Shown here piece by piece: positions 2,065-27,903 of a DNA stretch of 29,344 nucleotides. Position 1 is the stretch's first letter. Each line of letters starts with the position of its first letter. The position numbers were made by a program, and so were the translations under genes. Source of the stretch: a virus; IMG/VR virus record IMGVR_UViG_3300027865_000030, positions 1 through 29,344 of that record; one strand, written 5' to 3'. The notes below the pieces were generated by a model. That model had not been told where the DNA came from and ran no database searches. It was given only the letters and a program-made list of their open reading frames with translations.

Positions 2065-3717
2065 TTAAATGGATAACTTGCCGTCAATCTTTACTTTATG
2101 AATGGCACCAGCTAAAGTGGCACCAAATTTTACATCTGGAAGAAACCTATTGGCTTTGTTGGCTGTGCTAACATCGGCCACTTTTGGAGCCGTTATTGTG
2201 ATTGTGTTCGCGACCAATATCCCGTTATCAACAGCTTGTTCCAATACCGACTGGATTGCTGTTTTTATCATTTCAACACCGGCATCGGTGTATGGGACTT
2301 TGTCGGCATTTACTAAAACAGTAAAAACCTCTTCAGTTATTCGTGACTGAATCCAATCAACCCCACGGATTACACCAATAAACTCACCACTGGCAACAAC
2401 GCCTTCATGGATCATATTGACACCACCGATAGTTTCATAAATATTGGCGTTTTTTCCTTGTACATTCGTGACAACTGTTGAGGTCAATGTGTCCGGATTT
2501 ATCCCTGTCAGAGTTTTAAACTTCCATGTGATAGAACCGGGTGTTTTGGGTAGTTGACCGCCGAGCCATGCTGCTTCAGGAAATGAAGTCTCACCAGCTT
2601 GTTCCTCAGTAATGACCGTTGAGGTTGTACCAGTTAAGCTGGAAACATCAACGGTTATTGCGCTTATCGGTTTATTGCCGTCAATACCGTCCCATTCAAT
2701 GGTAAAACCGGAGGCGTCCATTATCCCTGTAACGGTAACCGAACCTATATTGGTCATGTTCTCTAGCGCGGTCTTGATAGCGGTATTAATTGCATCGTAA
2801 GCAATATCCGCTGAAGTAACACCATCCAATGTAATTGTAAAAGTACCGGCTGACGGTGCGGCATTTGGAACAACTTTTTGCTGTTCATTCTGCCCTGCTG
2901 ATGTCAGATAGACCAAGCCGGTTCTGTCATAATTTAACCCTTTTAACAGAGACATCAAATCAGCTGTTCCAGAACCCGCAATATCAGAATCTTCTGAAAC
3001 GGCGATAAAAATCTTTGGAGTACTGGCGGCTTCTATATCCTCGGCTATATCCAAAATGTCCTGTTCTGTTCGTGACAAAATACTCAAGGCATACCAATCA
3101 TCATCACCACCCGCTCCTTCATTCCTGATTGCTGCAAGGGCAGTTTTCCATGACTCTGTTGCCGATCCTGCCTGTATTACGGTTATGGTTCCAGCTGTAA
3201 CACCAGTGAGTGAACCAACAGTCACTGTCATTGTTGAAACAGCTTGCAATCCCGGATTAAGGAATTCAATGGTAAACCCTGCCGCCATTGTTCCACTTAC
3301 ACTGACTGAAGTGACAGCTGTAAGTGCCTCAAGTGCTGTTTCTACATCTGCTGCAACGTCGTCCCAGTTGATAGCACCGGTTGTTTCTGCTCCCAGTGTT
3401 AGTGTCCACGTCCCTGCTGTCGGAGTACCGGTGAATGAAACTTTTTGGATTGCATTGTAATCTGCTAATTTTTTGCCAATCTTAAATAATGTCGGTGACA
3501 ATTCTTGGCTCATTAATTTTATAGCTGCTAAATAATGAGAATCTGTTGTAAAAAACCCATCATCTAACATGTCGGCAGGATCATTGTAGGACCGAATACG
3601 ATCAGTAAAACGCGCGTGTTCTCCTAATATCGTTGGCGTACCGAATCCAACCTGTGTCACCCGTGCAGATTCTCTGGTAATGTTTACTTCCACTATATCT
3701 TTAATTTCTGTACTCAT
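2065..3717 (-). CDS. Contractile tail sheath protein (DUF3383-type) with two inserted beta domains
   Basis: A 550-residue protein with the DUF3383-type opening (residues 1-80) and C-terminal part (about 390-550, with the TLTSTVVTNVQGKNANIYE block and the D-G-I-L-V-A-N segment), as in sheath proteins of KPP10-like myoviruses. Two stretches, about residues 90-186 and 279-376, are related to each other: both carry G-T-x-T-x-T-L, a helix ending T-A-L-E, V-T/S-V-x-G, G-F-T-I-E and a run to V-x-x-G-x-x-x-x. They look like duplicated surface-exposed beta-sandwich insertions. The sheath contracts to push the tube. It sits between the neck terminator candidate and the tube gene. Confidence 0.85.
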   Translation of the reverse strand: MSTEIKDIVEVNITRESARVTQVGFGTPTILGEHARFTDRIRSYNDPADMLDDGFFTTDSHYLAAIKLMSQELSPTLFKIGKKLADYNAIQKVSFTGTPTAGTWTLTLGAETTGAINWDDVAADVETALEALTAVTSVSVSGTMAAGFTIEFLNPGLQAVSTMTVTVGSLTGVTAGTITVIQAGSATESWKTALAAIRNEGAGGDDDWYALSILSRTEQDILDIAEDIEAASTPKIFIAVSEDSDIAGSGTADLMSLLKGLNYDRTGLVYLTSAGQNEQQKVVPNAAPSAGTFTITLDGVTSADIAYDAINTAIKTALENMTNIGSVTVTGIMDASGFTIEWDGIDGNKPISAITVDVSSLTGTTSTVITEEQAGETSFPEAAWLGGQLPKTPGSITWKFKTLTGINPDTLTSTVVTNVQGKNANIYETIGGVNMIHEGVVASGEFIGVIRGVDWIQSRITEEVFTVLVNADKVPYTDAGVEMIKTAIQSVLEQAVDNGILVANTITITAPKVADVSTANKANRFLPDVKFGATLAGAIHKVKIDGKLSI

Positions 3718-3725
3718 TTGATCTC

Positions 3726-4253
3726 CTAAATTTCTATATCTGTATTGACATTTTCAAATTTCGTTCCAGATATTCCAGATACATTTGTTTTGATAATCTC
3801 ACCCGTTGGATCGTCTACTTCTTCAGCATATGCCATTGTCACATCAATCGATCCGCGCTTTTCAATTCCCGTATTAATCAGTTCTGATATATTTGTTGGG
3901 GATATACTGGTGTTGTTATAGACCGCCAAACCTGCTGCTTTCAATATTCCCGCTTTTGATGGCAATGTTATTGAGTTAATTAAATCAGACAATAAAGCTA
4001 AATGATTCGTGTTTGAAAAAGACTGGATTGAAAGAGTAAAAACTTTCCTGTATAAATATGTGAATATATTGGTTGTCTTATAAGTCCTTTGAGGTGTTCC
4101 GTCTAGTTGCGGTCCTGCGATTATATTGATTGATATATATGGTAGTGCTGGTCTCAAAGAGTTTTGATCTGTCCATATAGCTGAAATACCTAAAGTGGTT
4201 TCAATCCAACCTTGAATTGCTATTTGTTTTGTTGAATTTAACCGTTCCGGCAT
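3726..4253 (-). CDS. Neck/tail terminator-like protein (LIC_12616-type)
   Basis: A 175-residue protein just upstream of the sheath gene. The core (W-I-E-x-x-L-G-I-x-A-I-W-T-D-Q-N, then R-P-x-L-P-Y-I-S-I-N-I) resembles the family usually labelled phage neck terminator gp12-like or LIC_12616. Such proteins cap the tail and form part of the head-tail interface. The two-base gap to the next upstream gene implies translational coupling. The family call is moderate; gene order supports it. Confidence 0.65.
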   Translation of the reverse strand: MPERLNSTKQIAIQGWIETTLGISAIWTDQNSLRPALPYISINIIAGPQLDGTPQRTYKTTNIFTYLYRKVFTLSIQSFSNTNHLALLSDLINSITLPSKAGILKAAGLAVYNNTSISPTNISELINTGIEKRGSIDVTMAYAEEVDDPTGEIIKTNVSGISGTKFENVNTDIEI

Positions 4254-4254
4254 T

Positions 4255-4575
4255 TTACGTGTCCTTGAGCATTAAAAATGTTTTGTAATGTTGTAACTTT
4301 CCCTGCCTTGACCAATTCTCAATTGGATGTGCTTCAAATTCTTTATTATCAACCGTTACAATGTCATTAAGCATTAATTCTTCTGTCGTGTAGATTTTGA
4401 TGACTTGTCTTTTTCTGTCACCCTCTGAGATCTGCAAGATTTCATTCCCGGAAACCGGCTGACAATTTCCCTTAACCGTGAGGTTGGTAACAGCTCCTGC
4501 AACGAAAATCCCGTCTGTGTATGAGCCTGTCGCTGTTCTTTTGACTGCATAGGTTTCTTTATTTATCAAGCTCAT
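4255..4575 (-). CDS. Head-tail joining protein candidate
   Basis: A 106-residue, beta-rich protein (MSLINKETYAVKRTATGSYT opening; K-G-N-C-Q-P-V-S-G-N-E near residue 35; I-E-N-W-S-R-Q near 88). Its start overlaps the end of the preceding morphogenesis gene by 17 bases. Size, beta content and position between the gp10-like and terminator-like genes fit a head completion or stopper protein. No specific family is recognised with certainty. Confidence 0.5.
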   Translation of the reverse strand: MSLINKETYAVKRTATGSYTDGIFVAGAVTNLTVKGNCQPVSGNEILQISEGDRKRQVIKIYTTEELMLNDIVTVDNKEFEAHPIENWSRQGKLQHYKTFLMLKDT

Positions 4576-15858: not shown

Positions 15859-17277
15859 TTATTGATCCTCATCAGGTTCGTCTAATAGATCAAACTCTTT
15901 TCGTAATTCAAAGTCAATGTTTATAGTTTCATTTGAATAGCCAGATTTTGGAAATCTACTTTTTGCAACTTCTTCTGGCGAGACAACACTGTTTTCTATA
16001 TATATTTTATCAGATTCTGCTGTTATACGCTTGGTTTCTTCTTTAGTCTTTTCATCTGGTTCCCAAAGGGAATTGAAAGAATAAGTCCAGTCTTTAGGTA
16101 TTTTTCCTCTTGTAACAGAATTCTTGTTTAGCAGCAACAGCGTTAACGTTCTTGCCATTGGATCGGACAAGTGCTTGTTTTGGAATGCTGTTGCTGTATC
16201 AAAATACCTCCTTGTCTCTTCCGTCGCCCCCGCCATCTTTCCCATTTGCTGAGAGAATAATCTTGACCGTGGGGTTTCTGCTGCACCACAAACATCCTCT
16301 ATAATTTTATCATGAAGATTACTTAGACCGGACACGGGAGATTGTTTCTTTTCGAAATCCTCGTCTTCCATGTCGACCAATGCAATGCCAATTGACGACA
16401 TGCTTTTGGCAAATAATGCAAGCCTGCCCTCAATTGCTGTTTTTGCGTCTTCATTGCATATTTTATCCGCTAAACCCTTCGTCTTCAATATCTTCAACAC
16501 AAAATCCTGTAATATGGCGGATATACTTTGAATTGAAGAGCCATACCTCTTAAGCATGGCATTGATATTTATTATTAGAGAATCATTCCATCCACCATTA
16601 TGAACCTTAATCAAATCGGGGGTGTAAGGTCCGTCAAACTTTATTACCCTGGATGCATGGATAATCTTGTTATTTTCGAATAATTTAGTTAATTGTTTTA
16701 AGAATGCGGCAAACCCACTATGCCCTGTAATGGGTTGCAAAGAATAAAGTTCTGGCTGACCAAAGTTTAATTCTAGTGGATTCGAGTTTGTGCCAACAAT
16801 ATGAACTTGATGACGATCTAGCTTTGTAAAATGGGTTATATCTCTTATATTGTTTTCGTTTAAAGGCTGGGATATGTCTTCACCGTCGATTGCTCCGATA
16901 ATTACAATTGATCCGCCAAATAACCTAGAGTCAATCAATGCCTCGTTAAAGGTTTCCATTATATTAAATTTATCTATAGAATCATTAATATAACCAACTA
17001 TATTGGGATCTTCGGTATTAAATTTTATGCCCTTGCTAGTTGCATCATTTGGTAAAATATTGACAATCCTTCTCGTCAACCAATCCGTGCGATACATATA
17101 AGCAAGAGTAACATGATCAATAAAAAAGGAGTTTGGTGTCTGGAAAGATGTTAGTGACATCGGGTCATTGTTTCCACCAAAACCCGATACACTATTTTGC
17201 CAATTGTCGTACTTTTTTACCGCATATTTAGAGAATGCTTTTAAAAAAGAATCTTTCTTGACTTCTTCGTCCATCAT
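15859..17277 (-). CDS. Portal protein (DUF1073-type)
   Basis: 472 residues with features of the DUF1073 portal group: a Y-R-T-D-W-L-T-R-R-I-V-N-I-L-P-N-D-A-T-S segment near residue 60, E-A-L-I-D-S-R-L-F-G-G-S-I-V-I-I-G (about 105-120), R-V-I-K-F-D-G, and the P-R-S-R-L-F-S-Q-Q-M-G-K-M-A-G block (about 340). The portal is the dodecameric channel for DNA entry at one capsid vertex. It overlaps the end of the terminase frame by four bases. Length is normal for the family. Some databases file relatives under an Acb1-like name; the residues here fit a portal. Confidence 0.85.
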   Translation of the reverse strand: MMDEEVKKDSFLKAFSKYAVKKYDNWQNSVSGFGGNNDPMSLTSFQTPNSFFIDHVTLAYMYRTDWLTRRIVNILPNDATSKGIKFNTEDPNIVGYINDSIDKFNIMETFNEALIDSRLFGGSIVIIGAIDGEDISQPLNENNIRDITHFTKLDRHQVHIVGTNSNPLELNFGQPELYSLQPITGHSGFAAFLKQLTKLFENNKIIHASRVIKFDGPYTPDLIKVHNGGWNDSLIININAMLKRYGSSIQSISAILQDFVLKILKTKGLADKICNEDAKTAIEGRLALFAKSMSSIGIALVDMEDEDFEKKQSPVSGLSNLHDKIIEDVCGAAETPRSRLFSQQMGKMAGATEETRRYFDTATAFQNKHLSDPMARTLTLLLLNKNSVTRGKIPKDWTYSFNSLWEPDEKTKEETKRITAESDKIYIENSVVSPEEVAKSRFPKSGYSNETINIDFELRKEFDLLDEPDEDQ

Positions 17278-18002
17278 TTATTCTCCGAGAAAATATCTAG
17301 CATTGTTCTTTTAACTTCCAGCCTATCCGCCATAGAGGTACAATCCACATCCTCGTCATGTGCCGCATTTGGGAATGTTATAAGCCGCGTCTCGAATTCA
17401 GATAACCAATGTGCGTTCTTAGGGAAAAAGACTCTCTCGTTCTCGCAATAATTAGCCATAGGCGTTGCCCTGGCGTACTTATCCAGTCCCCCCGTGGGAA
17501 TCTCTTTGAAAGGTATTCTCTTTCCCCCATACGAATCCTTGCCCTCGCTTTGCTTGACTAATACCTTTCCGAGCTTTTCGTTTTCTATTCCTACCTCAGT
17601 GCAATCGTTCTTAAAAGCAAACTTCAATATTTCTTCATGGACTTTCCTATGTTCTATCCTATCATTAATTCTATCCAGCAGCAACCATATTCTGTTAGTC
17701 CTGCAATAACCCCATGCAAGCATACCGGTGGGATCATTTGTCTTCTTTATCTCGATAGCCGGATCAACATATACATGCCTAGTTATAGATTTTCTTTTTA
17801 TCCTGATCGGTTTTTCTTCATCTTTTCGCCAGCACAGGAAATCATACGTCCGTGGATCTATTTCATAATATCTGAAATGATCAGATTTAAAGAGCGTCCC
17901 TCCCCTTATTACGGGGTTAGCTTGGAATAATGCGCTCCAAACATAGGGAGCTATCGCGTTTTTTATATTATTTAATGCGGATTCATTCTTCACCAGGGCC
18001 AT
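17274..18002 (-). CDS. Terminase large subunit, nuclease part (separate frame)
   Basis: 242 residues. It begins at an ATG inside the end of the ATPase frame and carries the second half of TerL: A-P-Y-V-W-S-A-L-F-Q-A-N-P-V-I-R-G-G, then the RNase H-fold nuclease with V-Y-V-D-P-A-I, V-G-I-E-N-E and D-E-D-V-D-C-T-S-M-A-D as candidate metal-ligand regions. Joining the ATPase frame by a -1 shift gives L-W-P-W-V-K-N-E-S-A-L, the normal continuation of the family. It is thus either a naturally split gene using ATG 18002 or a one-base indel. Confidence 0.85.
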   Translation of the reverse strand: MALVKNESALNNIKNAIAPYVWSALFQANPVIRGGTLFKSDHFRYYEIDPRTYDFLCWRKDEEKPIRIKRKSITRHVYVDPAIEIKKTNDPTGMLAWGYCRTNRIWLLLDRINDRIEHRKVHEEILKFAFKNDCTEVGIENEKLGKVLVKQSEGKDSYGGKRIPFKEIPTGGLDKYARATPMANYCENERVFFPKNAHWLSEFETRLITFPNAAHDEDVDCTSMADRLEVKRTMLDIFSENK

Positions 18003-18748
18003 AATGCCTCACCCGGTTTTCTGCCAAGAATATCGTTTTCTTCTGCTATGGCCGGTAATTTTATGTTGATTATGTTAAAGGGACAATCTTCTCCTAACTC
18101 TTGTTCTTGTTTTAACAACCTTCCACATAGATCATCATCATGCCACCTGGTGGCGTAAATTACAACAAACCCGCCCGGATGTATTCTGTGTAATGCCGCC
18201 GACTCCCACCAATCCCATACATTATCCCGTTGTAATTGCGATTCCGCCGATAGCGAATCTTTGTGATAGTCATCTATCAATAGAATATCAGCACCGAATC
18301 CAGATGCACCCGATTCTATACCCACAGATTTTACACCACCACCCAGCGACGTTTCCCAATCTGAACCTGCGAAAGTGTCTTCACTGGGATAAGATCCCCA
18401 CAAAAATGGGGCATGTTCTTTGAATAATCCCCGTGCTTTCCTTGAATGTTTTTCGGCTAACCTTGATTGATAAGCTGCTATAATAATCCTCTTTGTCGGA
18501 AAATTGCCTAATATCCAAGCACTGCCATGACAGCACGTAAGCTCTGTCTTGCCATGGCGTGGCGGGCCACCAACCATTATTATTTTATGTTTCTCATGCC
18601 TCTTACTAATATCATTCATATCTTTCAGTGCATTATCAATTATATTTGATAAATACCGTGAATGCATCGGTATCTGAAAGTTTGAAGCGTATTTTGTAAA
18701 GGCGCACAAAGAACTGCTCGCCAGTCCTGCGTAGGCATCTTCTGTCAT
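17990..18748 (-). CDS. Terminase large subunit, ATPase part (separate frame)
   Basis: 252 residues. It holds the DNA-packaging ATPase: G-G-P-P-R-H-G-K-T-E (Walker A type, about residues 59-68), a D-I-L-L-I-D-D-Y-H-K-D Walker B region near 150, and the coupling segment Y-A-T-R-W-H-D-D-D-L (about 200). It ends G-E-A-L-W-P-W at a TGA, exactly where complete TerL proteins pass into the nuclease domain. Its ATG overlaps the stop of the XRE gene. Confidence 0.88.
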   Translation of the reverse strand: MTEDAYAGLASSSLCAFTKYASNFQIPMHSRYLSNIIDNALKDMNDISKRHEKHKIIMVGGPPRHGKTELTCCHGSAWILGNFPTKRIIIAAYQSRLAEKHSRKARGLFKEHAPFLWGSYPSEDTFAGSDWETSLGGGVKSVGIESGASGFGADILLIDDYHKDSLSAESQLQRDNVWDWWESAALHRIHPGGFVVIYATRWHDDDLCGRLLKQEQELGEDCPFNIINIKLPAIAEENDILGRKPGEALWPW

Positions 18749-20944: not shown

Positions 20945-21060
20945 TTATTTTAATTTCTTTTAACATTTCTTTATAATAGTACTTGACGTATTCTAATATT
21001 ATTGGTATACTCAATGTATAAAGAGTAGGGAAACACAAATAAAAGGAGAAAACAATGAAA
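20945..21060 (+). repeat. 116-bp promoter module, copy 1
   Basis: Repeats at 21965-22080 with four mismatches. It holds TTGACG (20983-20988), a 17-base spacer, TATACT (21006-21011), the AAAAGGAG ribosome site and the start of the gene at 21055. The spacer and -10 region form an imperfect 23-base palindrome, a possible operator. Confidence 0.8.
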
Positions 21061-21330
21061 ATAGAAATAACAGTAAGAAGGCCGGAAGGAAACATAGAGA
21101 AGGTAATCACCGAAAAATTCGGTAATCTTAATAAGGCCCTATGGCAAAAAATGATTGAGACCACCAGGTCCTCTGGTAAGGGAGAATGTTTGAGCTATCG
21201 CAAGATTGAAACAGAAATAGTTTACAATCCGAACGAGAAAGCACAATGCAGTTTTTGCGGGACTTGGAGCATAGCCAAGAAGATGGAAAAAAGAGGAATT
21301 GATTTTTTTCATCGCGGCTGCACTATTTAA
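21055..21330 (+). CDS. Early protein with a zinc-ribbon-like end
   Basis: 91 residues. Beta-rich N-terminus M-K-I-E-I-T-V-R-R-P-E-G-N-I-E-K-V-I. The C-terminus has C-S-F-C-G-T-W (residues 65-71) and H-R-G-C (86-89), which together could hold one zinc ion. First gene behind promoter copy 1 and in the same cassette as the Csx3-like gene. Function unknown; an accessory or anti-defence role is only inference from context. Confidence 0.55.
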   Translation: MKIEITVRRPEGNIEKVITEKFGNLNKALWQKMIETTRSSGKGECLSYRKIETEIVYNPNEKAQCSFCGTWSIAKKMEKRGIDFFHRGCTI

Positions 21331-21582: not shown

Positions 21583-21951
21583 ATGGAAAAGCTTATAAAA
21601 AGTTCCCGCCCAGCCATCTACAAAAAGATCTACCCGGAGGACGTCACCGAGGTTGAAAAGATTATGTCCGAAGCCCTCCCGCCGGGCGCTCCCGCTGACA
21701 CTGGAGATGCGGGAATTGTCTTAGAACTTTCCACGCTATTCTCTGAAAAGGCCAAAATAGTGGAATTGGATAAATATATTCAGATAGCTAATAATTTTGC
21801 TGGTGAGGGTAATGATATTATTCTATCCGGTAATGCGCCAGTATGGTTATACCTTAAGGTGGCACATGCTCTACACGGTAAGGCTCTTAAACTCAGTTAT
21901 TCCTCACCAGTAACAGGTGAAGTTGTAATCTTTGATCACAATCCCTTTTAG
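21583..21951 (+). CDS. Csx3/Crn3-like protein, candidate phage ring nuclease or cOA binder
   Basis: 122 residues. The C-terminal 75 follow the Csx3 pattern: I-I-L-S-G-N-A-P-V-W-L-Y (residues 79-90), A-H-A-L-H (94-98), S-Y-S-S-P (105-109) and G-E-V-V-I-F-D-H-N-P (112-121). In Csx3 as I recall it these are S-G-x-x-P-x-W-L, A-H-x-x-H, Y-D-P-R and G-A-V-V-V-x-x-H-S. Both His positions and the G/W core are kept; the Asp of Y-D-P-R is Ser107 here. Csx3 (Crn3) binds and cleaves the type III CRISPR messenger cA4. An N-terminal 45-residue extension is extra. Strong AAAAAGGAGCAG site. No cas gene is nearby. It may degrade, or only sequester, cyclic oligoadenylate; or it may be a divergent fold relative. 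Confidence 0.6.
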   Translation: MEKLIKSSRPAIYKKIYPEDVTEVEKIMSEALPPGAPADTGDAGIVLELSTLFSEKAKIVELDKYIQIANNFAGEGNDIILSGNAPVWLYLKVAHALHGKALKLSYSSPVTGEVVIFDHNPF

Positions 21952-21964
21952 AGTCGACTTCACC

Positions 21965-22080
21965 TTATTTTAATTTCATTTAACATTTCTTTATAATAGT
22001 ACTTGACGTATTCTAATATTATTGGTATACTCATTGTATAAAGAGTAGGGAAACACAAATAAAAGGAGCAAAAAATGAAA
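21965..22080 (+). repeat. 116-bp promoter module, copy 2
   Basis: Second copy of 20945-21060, 1020 bases away. TTGACG 22003-22008, 17-base spacer, TATACT 22026-22031, ribosome site and ATG 22075. It gives the downstream genes their own promoter and brackets the Csx3-like cassette. Confidence 0.8.
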
Positions 22081-22179
22081 TTATTTAAAAAGGAGCAGAA
22101 GCTGGAACCTCAGACGGGAGGTAAAAAGTTCAAAAAAACAAAGAAAAATAGAAGGAGAAAAGAAAATGAAACGTTCTAA
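22075..22179 (+). CDS. Very basic 34-residue leader-type peptide
   Basis: Starts behind promoter copy 2 with an AAAAGGAG site: MKLFKKEQKLEPQTGGKKFK, then more Lys/Arg. The first eight residues copy the start at 21344, so it is the broken end of the duplicated start module fused to new sequence. It overlaps the next gene and may act only as a translational leader. Confidence 0.4.
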   Translation: MKLFKKEQKLEPQTGGKKFKKTKKNRRRKENETF

Positions 22180-22492
22180 TGATCAAGTAATTCAAGAAAA
22201 CGATGAAATTTCAGACTGTGCTAAACGATCGGTTATCCGCTCAAAACAAGGAGAAAATGCCATGATTACCCTAAAGAACGACTTTCATAACACAGAAGTA
22301 AGAGTTAACCCCAAAGACTTTGAATTATCAGCAGGACAAGTAAAACGTGCAGGTAAAGTACTTTGCGGAATAAATGGTTGTGGATGTGGCAATAGCGCAG
22401 GGATGAGAGGTCATGACAATCCCGCGATTGAATTCAACCAGGACTGGATTGATAATAAATTGGTTATCACGGGCACAATTTTAGAATCTTAA
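22166..22492 (+). CDS. Early hypothetical phage protein
   Basis: 108 residues, with an internal ATG at 22262 (AAGGAG eight bases ahead) that may be the true start. From there M-I-T-L-K-N-D-F-H-N-T-E-V-R-V, Q-V-K-R-A-G-K-V-L-C-G-I-N-G-C-G-C-G match a small group of phage proteins with an N-D-F-H-N-T-E and a Cys-rich motif. The three Cys may bind metal. Function unknown. Confidence 0.55.
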   Translation: MKRSNDQVIQENDEISDCAKRSVIRSKQGENAMITLKNDFHNTEVRVNPKDFELSAGQVKRAGKVLCGINGCGCGNSAGMRGHDNPAIEFNQDWIDNKLVITGTILES

Positions 22493-27003: not shown

Positions 27004-27038
27004 TTTGTAAAAAACCCGAAAAGATATACCCCCACACC

Positions 27039-27264
27039 ATGGCCGTTTTTATGCGGCCATTTTTTTGTACACCCTATCCTATTGATATATCAATAAATAC
27101 TGTTTGTCCCTCACTCTGTCCTTCAGCTGTCCATCCATTGTCCCTCACTATATGGCCGTTTTTATGCGGCCATTTTTTTGTACACCCTATCCTATTGATA
27201 TATCAATAAATACTGTTTGTCCCTCACTCTGTCCTTCAGCTGTCCATCCATTGTCCCTCACTAT
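27039..27264 (+). repeat. Two perfect 113-bp tandem repeats, each with a rightward terminator
   Basis: Units 27039-27151 and 27152-27264 are identical. Each starts with ATGGCCG/CGGCCAT hairpin arms and a T7 run, a rho-independent terminator for rightward transcripts. Each also holds the palindrome ATTGATATATCAAT and two GTCCCTCACT words. Perfect identity suggests a recent duplication. Confidence 0.85.
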
Positions 27265-27558: not shown

Positions 27559-27903
27559 GTGCTTGACGCCCGGTCTGGAAAGGATCGGGAAAGGTGTCGG
27601 GAGAACATCGATACAGAGAATTCTACTCTAATGACCGACGAATACAAGGGTTATCTCACAATGTCCTCTATAATTGAGCATAAGACTATTAATCATCAAC
27701 AATGGTATGTGTTTGGTGAGATTCACACCAATACCATCGAATGTTTTTGGTCTATCCTTAAAAGAGGATTGGTTGGTCAATTCCATAAGGTAAGCGTGAA
27801 GCATCTCAATAAGTACATTGATGAATTCTGTTACCGTTTCAACAATCGCAAGAATGATGATGTCTTTGCTTTAACCTTACAAAGAGCCGTGGGGATATTC
27901 TAA
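27559..27903 (+). pseudogene. IS1595-type transposase, C-terminal remnant
   Basis: The last ~95 codons of a transposase: T-D-E-Y-K-G-Y-L, I-N-H-Q-Q-W-Y-V-F-G-E-I-H-T-N-T-I-E, F-W-S-I-L-K-R-G-L-V-G-Q-F-H-K-V-S and H-L-N-K-Y-I-D-E-F-C-Y-R-F-N-N-R, all typical of the DDE end of the IS1595 (ISXO2-like) family. The N-terminal zinc ribbon and the first acidic residues are absent, and the opening ~20 codons do not fit. No terminal inverted repeats were found. Confidence 0.75.

Follow-up and report, generated by a model that had tools for sequence, protein, structure and literature searches.

Does a Csx3/Crn3-like gene carried by a phage act against type III CRISPR signalling? The window analysed here, the whole 29,344-nt stretch of virus record IMGVR_UViG_3300027865_000030, contains at positions 21583–21951 (+) an intact ORF of 122 aa with a strong ribosome-binding site, AAAAGGAGCAGAAAATG, ahead of it. 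A preliminary description made from the sequence alone had proposed that the product is Csx3/Crn3-like, and profile searches bore this out. The C-terminal part scored 27.3 bits against Pfam PF09620 (Cas_csx3), above the gathering cut-off of 21 (E = 3e-6), and among PADLOC profiles it matched Csx3 (E = 1e-14) and, most strongly, the terminal Csx3 portion of CARF2--CARF_HEPN_CSX3 (E = 1e-33). A phmmer search of PDB sequences placed Archaeoglobus fulgidus Csx3 (AfCsx3, AF1864) on top with weak E-values of 0.01–0.2. Against the NCBIfam crn3 equivalog TIGR02579 the phage protein scored 27.3 bits, below the cut-off of 55.4, which is also missed by its relatives from CRISPR loci (22.6–30.1 bits). The Csx3 pattern in the phage ORF is more than chance, and the C-terminal 78 residues (residues 45–122; positions 21715–21948, +), as delimited by alignment with 17 relatives, model confidence and PDB matches to AfCsx3, form a Csx3/Crn3-type domain. 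The preceding residues 1–44 (positions 21583–21714, +) form an N-terminal extension that is missing from the stand-alone bacterial members of that alignment. PADLOC and tblastn alignments extending into this N-terminus prompted the idea that it is the relic of a HEPN tail from a CARF-HEPN-Csx3 fusion; the idea was rejected, since 16–22% of shuffles aligned equally well to the two fusion linkers.

The preliminary description had proposed a predicted structure as a check on the Csx3 assignment, and the outcome was favourable. An AlphaFold2 model built from 18 sequences gave block means of pLDDT of 86–98 over residues 41–120 and poor values for the first 40 residues. When this model was compared with the PDB by Foldseek, the ten best matches were all A. 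fulgidus Csx3 (probability 0.99–1.00), with E-values of only 0.008–0.08. In VIA-align the five best rows were likewise AfCsx3 (Z of 8.1 over 75 residues at 2.1 Å), followed by Cat1 and SAVED proteins with Z of about 5 to 6.6; a search of a viral structure library with the phage model returned no Csx3-like match. The predicted fold of the phage domain is that of Csx3.

In Csx3 the active site is shared between stacked dimers: cA4 is sandwiched between two of them, one supplying the D69 face and the other the histidine face (PMC7371418). AfCsx3 uses D69, R71, and R46 for cleavage of or contact with cA4; the D69A or H60A mutation abolishes activity, and R71A or H80A removes most of it (PMC7371418). 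The histidine metal face is intact in the phage protein, where H95, H98, and H119 correspond to H57, H60, and H80 of AfCsx3 (codons H95–H98 at 21865–21876 and D118–H119 at 21934–21939, both +), and the SG-x-x-P-x-W and G-x-V-V motifs are shared as well. In contrast, on the cA4 face Ser stands in place of D69 and Val110 in place of R71 (codons S107-S108-P109-V110 at 21901–21912, +, corresponding to D69-P70-R71), R46 is replaced by Asn84, and the protein stops just past H119, so that the last part of the Csx3 fold is absent. It was proposed earlier that the Asp of the Y-D-P-R motif has become Ser107. The replacement by Ser stands, and the residue is Ser107 if that position lies opposite D69; the HMMER alignment, however, sets S108 opposite D69 and takes S107 as an insertion. 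The changes at R71 and R46 and the early end of the protein had been overlooked. Because D69, R71, and R46 are all replaced, canonical catalysis by the phage protein is doubtful.

The exchange of Asp for Ser did not arise in the phage. When the phage protein was used to scan genomes of bacteria and archaea, 18 loci were recovered, 17 of them at 53–73% over residues 45–122 or part of that range and one, a fusion, at 42%. The phage protein is not a Csx3 that has degenerated since the phage acquired it, but a member of a conserved Csx3-variant family of about 82 residues (64 distinct members), a grouping defined in this analysis. Ser-Pro is present in 64/64 members, Val occupies the R71 position in 61/64, and R46 is kept in only 3/64, while H57, H60, H80, and an Asp directly before H80 (D118 in the phage protein) occur in every one of the 64 distinct sequences. 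All of the family motifs, TG..P[VI]WLYL..AH.LHG, Y.SP[VT].G, and FDH, are found in the phage protein, with SG for TG. Of the two faces of the known active site, the family thus keeps one and has rebuilt the other in a conserved manner. The phage copy itself looks constrained, because T82S is its sole departure at the A2 alignment columns conserved in at least 90% of sequences. Profile searches detected the variant in 31 of 296 sampled genomes of Nitrospirota, the phylum of Thermodesulfovibrio, in 15 of 395 from the phylum of a Syntrophorhabdaceae genome, and in 7 of 398 from that of a Desulfoscipio genome. The family tree, built on 81 columns, is mostly unresolved and gives the window protein no supported sister. 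We know of no biochemistry for this family.

The genomic setting of the bacterial members strengthens the link to type III signalling suggested in the preliminary description. Relatives 47–67% identical to the phage protein are located in type III loci, and cas or CARF genes lie within about 1.6 kb on either side of 51 of the 60 distinct bacterial variant members, compared with 0 of 90 control windows (3.2 kb each, drawn from 20 member genomes, in each from the first contig, and not position-matched on contigs). The cas/CARF reference proteins were chosen by reading the loci and were partly profile-checked; when the loci that supplied them were left out, 38 of 46 members were still beside cas or CARF genes. 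The variant gene overlaps a CARF-PDDEXK gene of the Can2/Card1 kind in two loci (L009 and L018), directly follows one in two others (L015 and L017), and lies ahead of an AAA-Csx3 gene in L016. In two genomes it is fused to a Csx1-like CARF-HEPN effector, and the Csx3 domain of the fusion has the same variant motif. The overlaps with Can2/Card1-like CARF nuclease genes and the CARF-HEPN fusions tie the variant to cyclic oligoadenylate effectors, and the family likely has a role in cyclic oligoadenylate control, although context is not proof. A reverse-transcriptase-like gene of one kind is also found close to the variant in eight CRISPR-linked loci (L012, L013, L016, L080, L082, L084, L089, and L098).

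The window has no cas-like or CARF match, as expected of a phage copy; neither a CRISPR array nor a known structured RNA was seen in it. It encodes a tail sheath, major head protein, portal, terminase, and amidase, and the variant gene sits between the phage terminase and methyltransferase genes, in agreement with the phage location first noted. A 119-nt direct repeat (96% identity) forms two promoter and ribosome-binding site cassettes. Copy 1 (20945–21063, +), with a promoter-like site TTGACG-17-TATACT at 20983–21011, precedes a run of small plus-strand genes whose last member is the Csx3 variant, and copy 2 (21965–22083, +), with its promoter-like site at 22003–22031, lies just downstream of the gene. 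The gene may be expressed early. With a cassette on either side of the run, the small early genes look as though they could be swapped as modules. Genes nearby, at 21055, 21299, and 22166, may likewise serve counter-defence; those at 21055–21330 (+), upstream in the same run, and at 22166–22492 (+), after the second cassette, are ORFs of unassigned function with no PHROGs match. The portal protein was matched at only 24% identity in one genome from each of two phyla and at less than 30% in cultured phages, which points to no host; if the protein acts as proposed below, the host would carry a type III system.

The large terminase gene (17274–18748, −) occupies two ORFs that overlap in different frames. 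In L007 the relative has a single 490-aa ORF, so the split reflects either a frameshift or an error in assembly. Towards the contig's right end lie a 113-nt tandem duplication (96%; 27029–27254) and a piece of an IS1595-family transposase (27559–27903), possibly host DNA or an insertion. Given the split terminase and the transposase piece, the window may be a decaying prophage; it may also be a prophage end or hold assembly errors.

The window is not the only phage location of the variant. It was found in three more viral contigs (L034, L035, and L036) and in five prophage-like genomic loci (L126–L130) with phage capsid or integrase genes, three of which group with L034 in the tree (support 98/80). 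With the window protein alone as query, no close viral relative was retrieved, and no relative was found in cultured phages. An Arg opposite D69 together with an Asp after the turn is present in 45 of 54 chromosomal variant members, while in the nine copies from phages or prophages this pair reads S/E (the window), E/K, T/E, R/D and, five times, D with P, R, or K; the Arg is absent from eight of the nine. A phage signature at this pair is possible but only a lead, and the events are few because most prophage copies are related to each other. In L034 the contig also bears Csf2-like, Csf3-like, and CysH-like genes (2218–4467), a combination found in type IV-B CRISPR, and these lie close to phage genes for recombination. 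Canonical Csx3, with an intact DPR motif and no cas genes nearby, makes up a separate, second group of viral genes: it comprises nine viral contigs, several of which were checked for phage genes, and a Pyramidobacter phage-like element reached via plasmid matches (L002, L004–L006, L027, L028, and L030–L033). A survey of 28,114 phage genomes by Hoikkala and colleagues found AcrIII-1, Csx20, and Csx16 and named no Crn3 (PMC12409355). Literature coverage was restricted to open-access papers, so a viral Crn3 may have been reported elsewhere before.

On balance, we read the gene as a Csx3/Crn3-like accessory of type III CRISPR that is carried here by a phage, and we lean towards the view that its product antagonises cyclic oligoadenylate signalling by either cleaving or sequestering the messenger. 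In bacteria the family probably sets the level of a cyclic oligoadenylate. This is most likely cA4, which the accompanying Can2/Card1- and Csx1-type effectors have as their ligand. The phage-made protein would bind the host messenger between stacked dimers, like Csx3, and remove it by metal-dependent cleavage through the intact histidine face or by sequestration, and the CARF effectors would thereby stay off.

Within this same frame, it is possible, if rather doubtful, that the protein binds cyclic oligoadenylate and hardly cleaves it. Such a sponge would accord with the replacement of D69 and R71 and with the loss, in eight of nine phage or prophage members, of the Arg that most others have opposite D69. 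It would also have a precedent in Csx15, which binds cA4 strongly in stacked dimers and is a very slow ring nuclease, yet can damp effectors when overexpressed; Csx15 belongs to another family and is not found in phage genomes. The three metal-face histidines and the extra Asp are invariant, however, and a pure binder would not obviously need them. It is unlikely that the family has a ligand other than cA4, such as other ring sizes, SAM-AMP, or RNA, and that the phage copy works against this other signal. R46, D69, and R71 of the ligand face are indeed altered in a conserved way, and AfCsx3 was originally described as an RNA deadenylase (PMC7371418), but the CARF-PDDEXK and Csx1-like neighbours are of kinds known mostly for cA4.

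Slightly less probable still is a role on the prophage side, in which the protein quiets the lysogen's own type III system, or joins and blocks host Csx3 oligomers, rather than serving lytic infection. The five prophage-like loci and the sharing of the active site between stacked dimers would suit such a role; no integrase was found within the window, however, and mixed oligomers are without support. That the gene is a neutral passenger, a CRISPR gene acquired by chance and unused, is improbable, for the regional decay hinted at by the split terminase and transposase piece is set against an intact frame, a strong ribosome-binding site, conserved motifs, and repeated occurrence in viral genomes.

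An antagonist of cyclic oligoadenylate signalling based on Csx3 would differ from the known ones. Like AcrIII-1 (viral Crn2, DUF1874), the phage protein would be viral and homologous to a ring nuclease of cells; AcrIII-1 is of another fold family, and the phage protein has no match to the DUF1874 profile, a Pfam scan to an E-value of 10 giving only Cas_csx3 and a SecA domain. AcrIII-2, a viral SAVED ring nuclease featuring a head-to-tail sandwich of cA4, is a precedent for viral capture of a type III protein's messenger-binding domain, but its SAVED domain has 235 residues and VIA-align gave a Z of only 4.9 to the phage model. The best profile match was to the C-terminal Csx3 domain of the CARF_HEPN_CSX3 fusions (PADLOC PDLC01844), and the phage protein lacks their CARF and HEPN domains. 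More tentatively, and short of what we would call probable, the protein could represent a new kind of viral anti-CRISPR directed at type III systems and built on Csx3, with a rebuilt site (Ser-Pro-Val-Thr-Gly and the invariant Asp-His) and a non-Crn3 mechanism on cyclic oligoadenylate, taken from CRISPR loci more than once and altered in its phage copies at the conserved Arg/Asp pair.

In summary, the presence of Csx3 in viral contigs, in both canonical and variant form, would extend the viral countermeasures to type III CRISPR by this family. Since just one half of the known active site is retained in the variant, it allows a direct test of whether a Csx3-type protein can do without D69 and R71, as a sponge or on another ligand.
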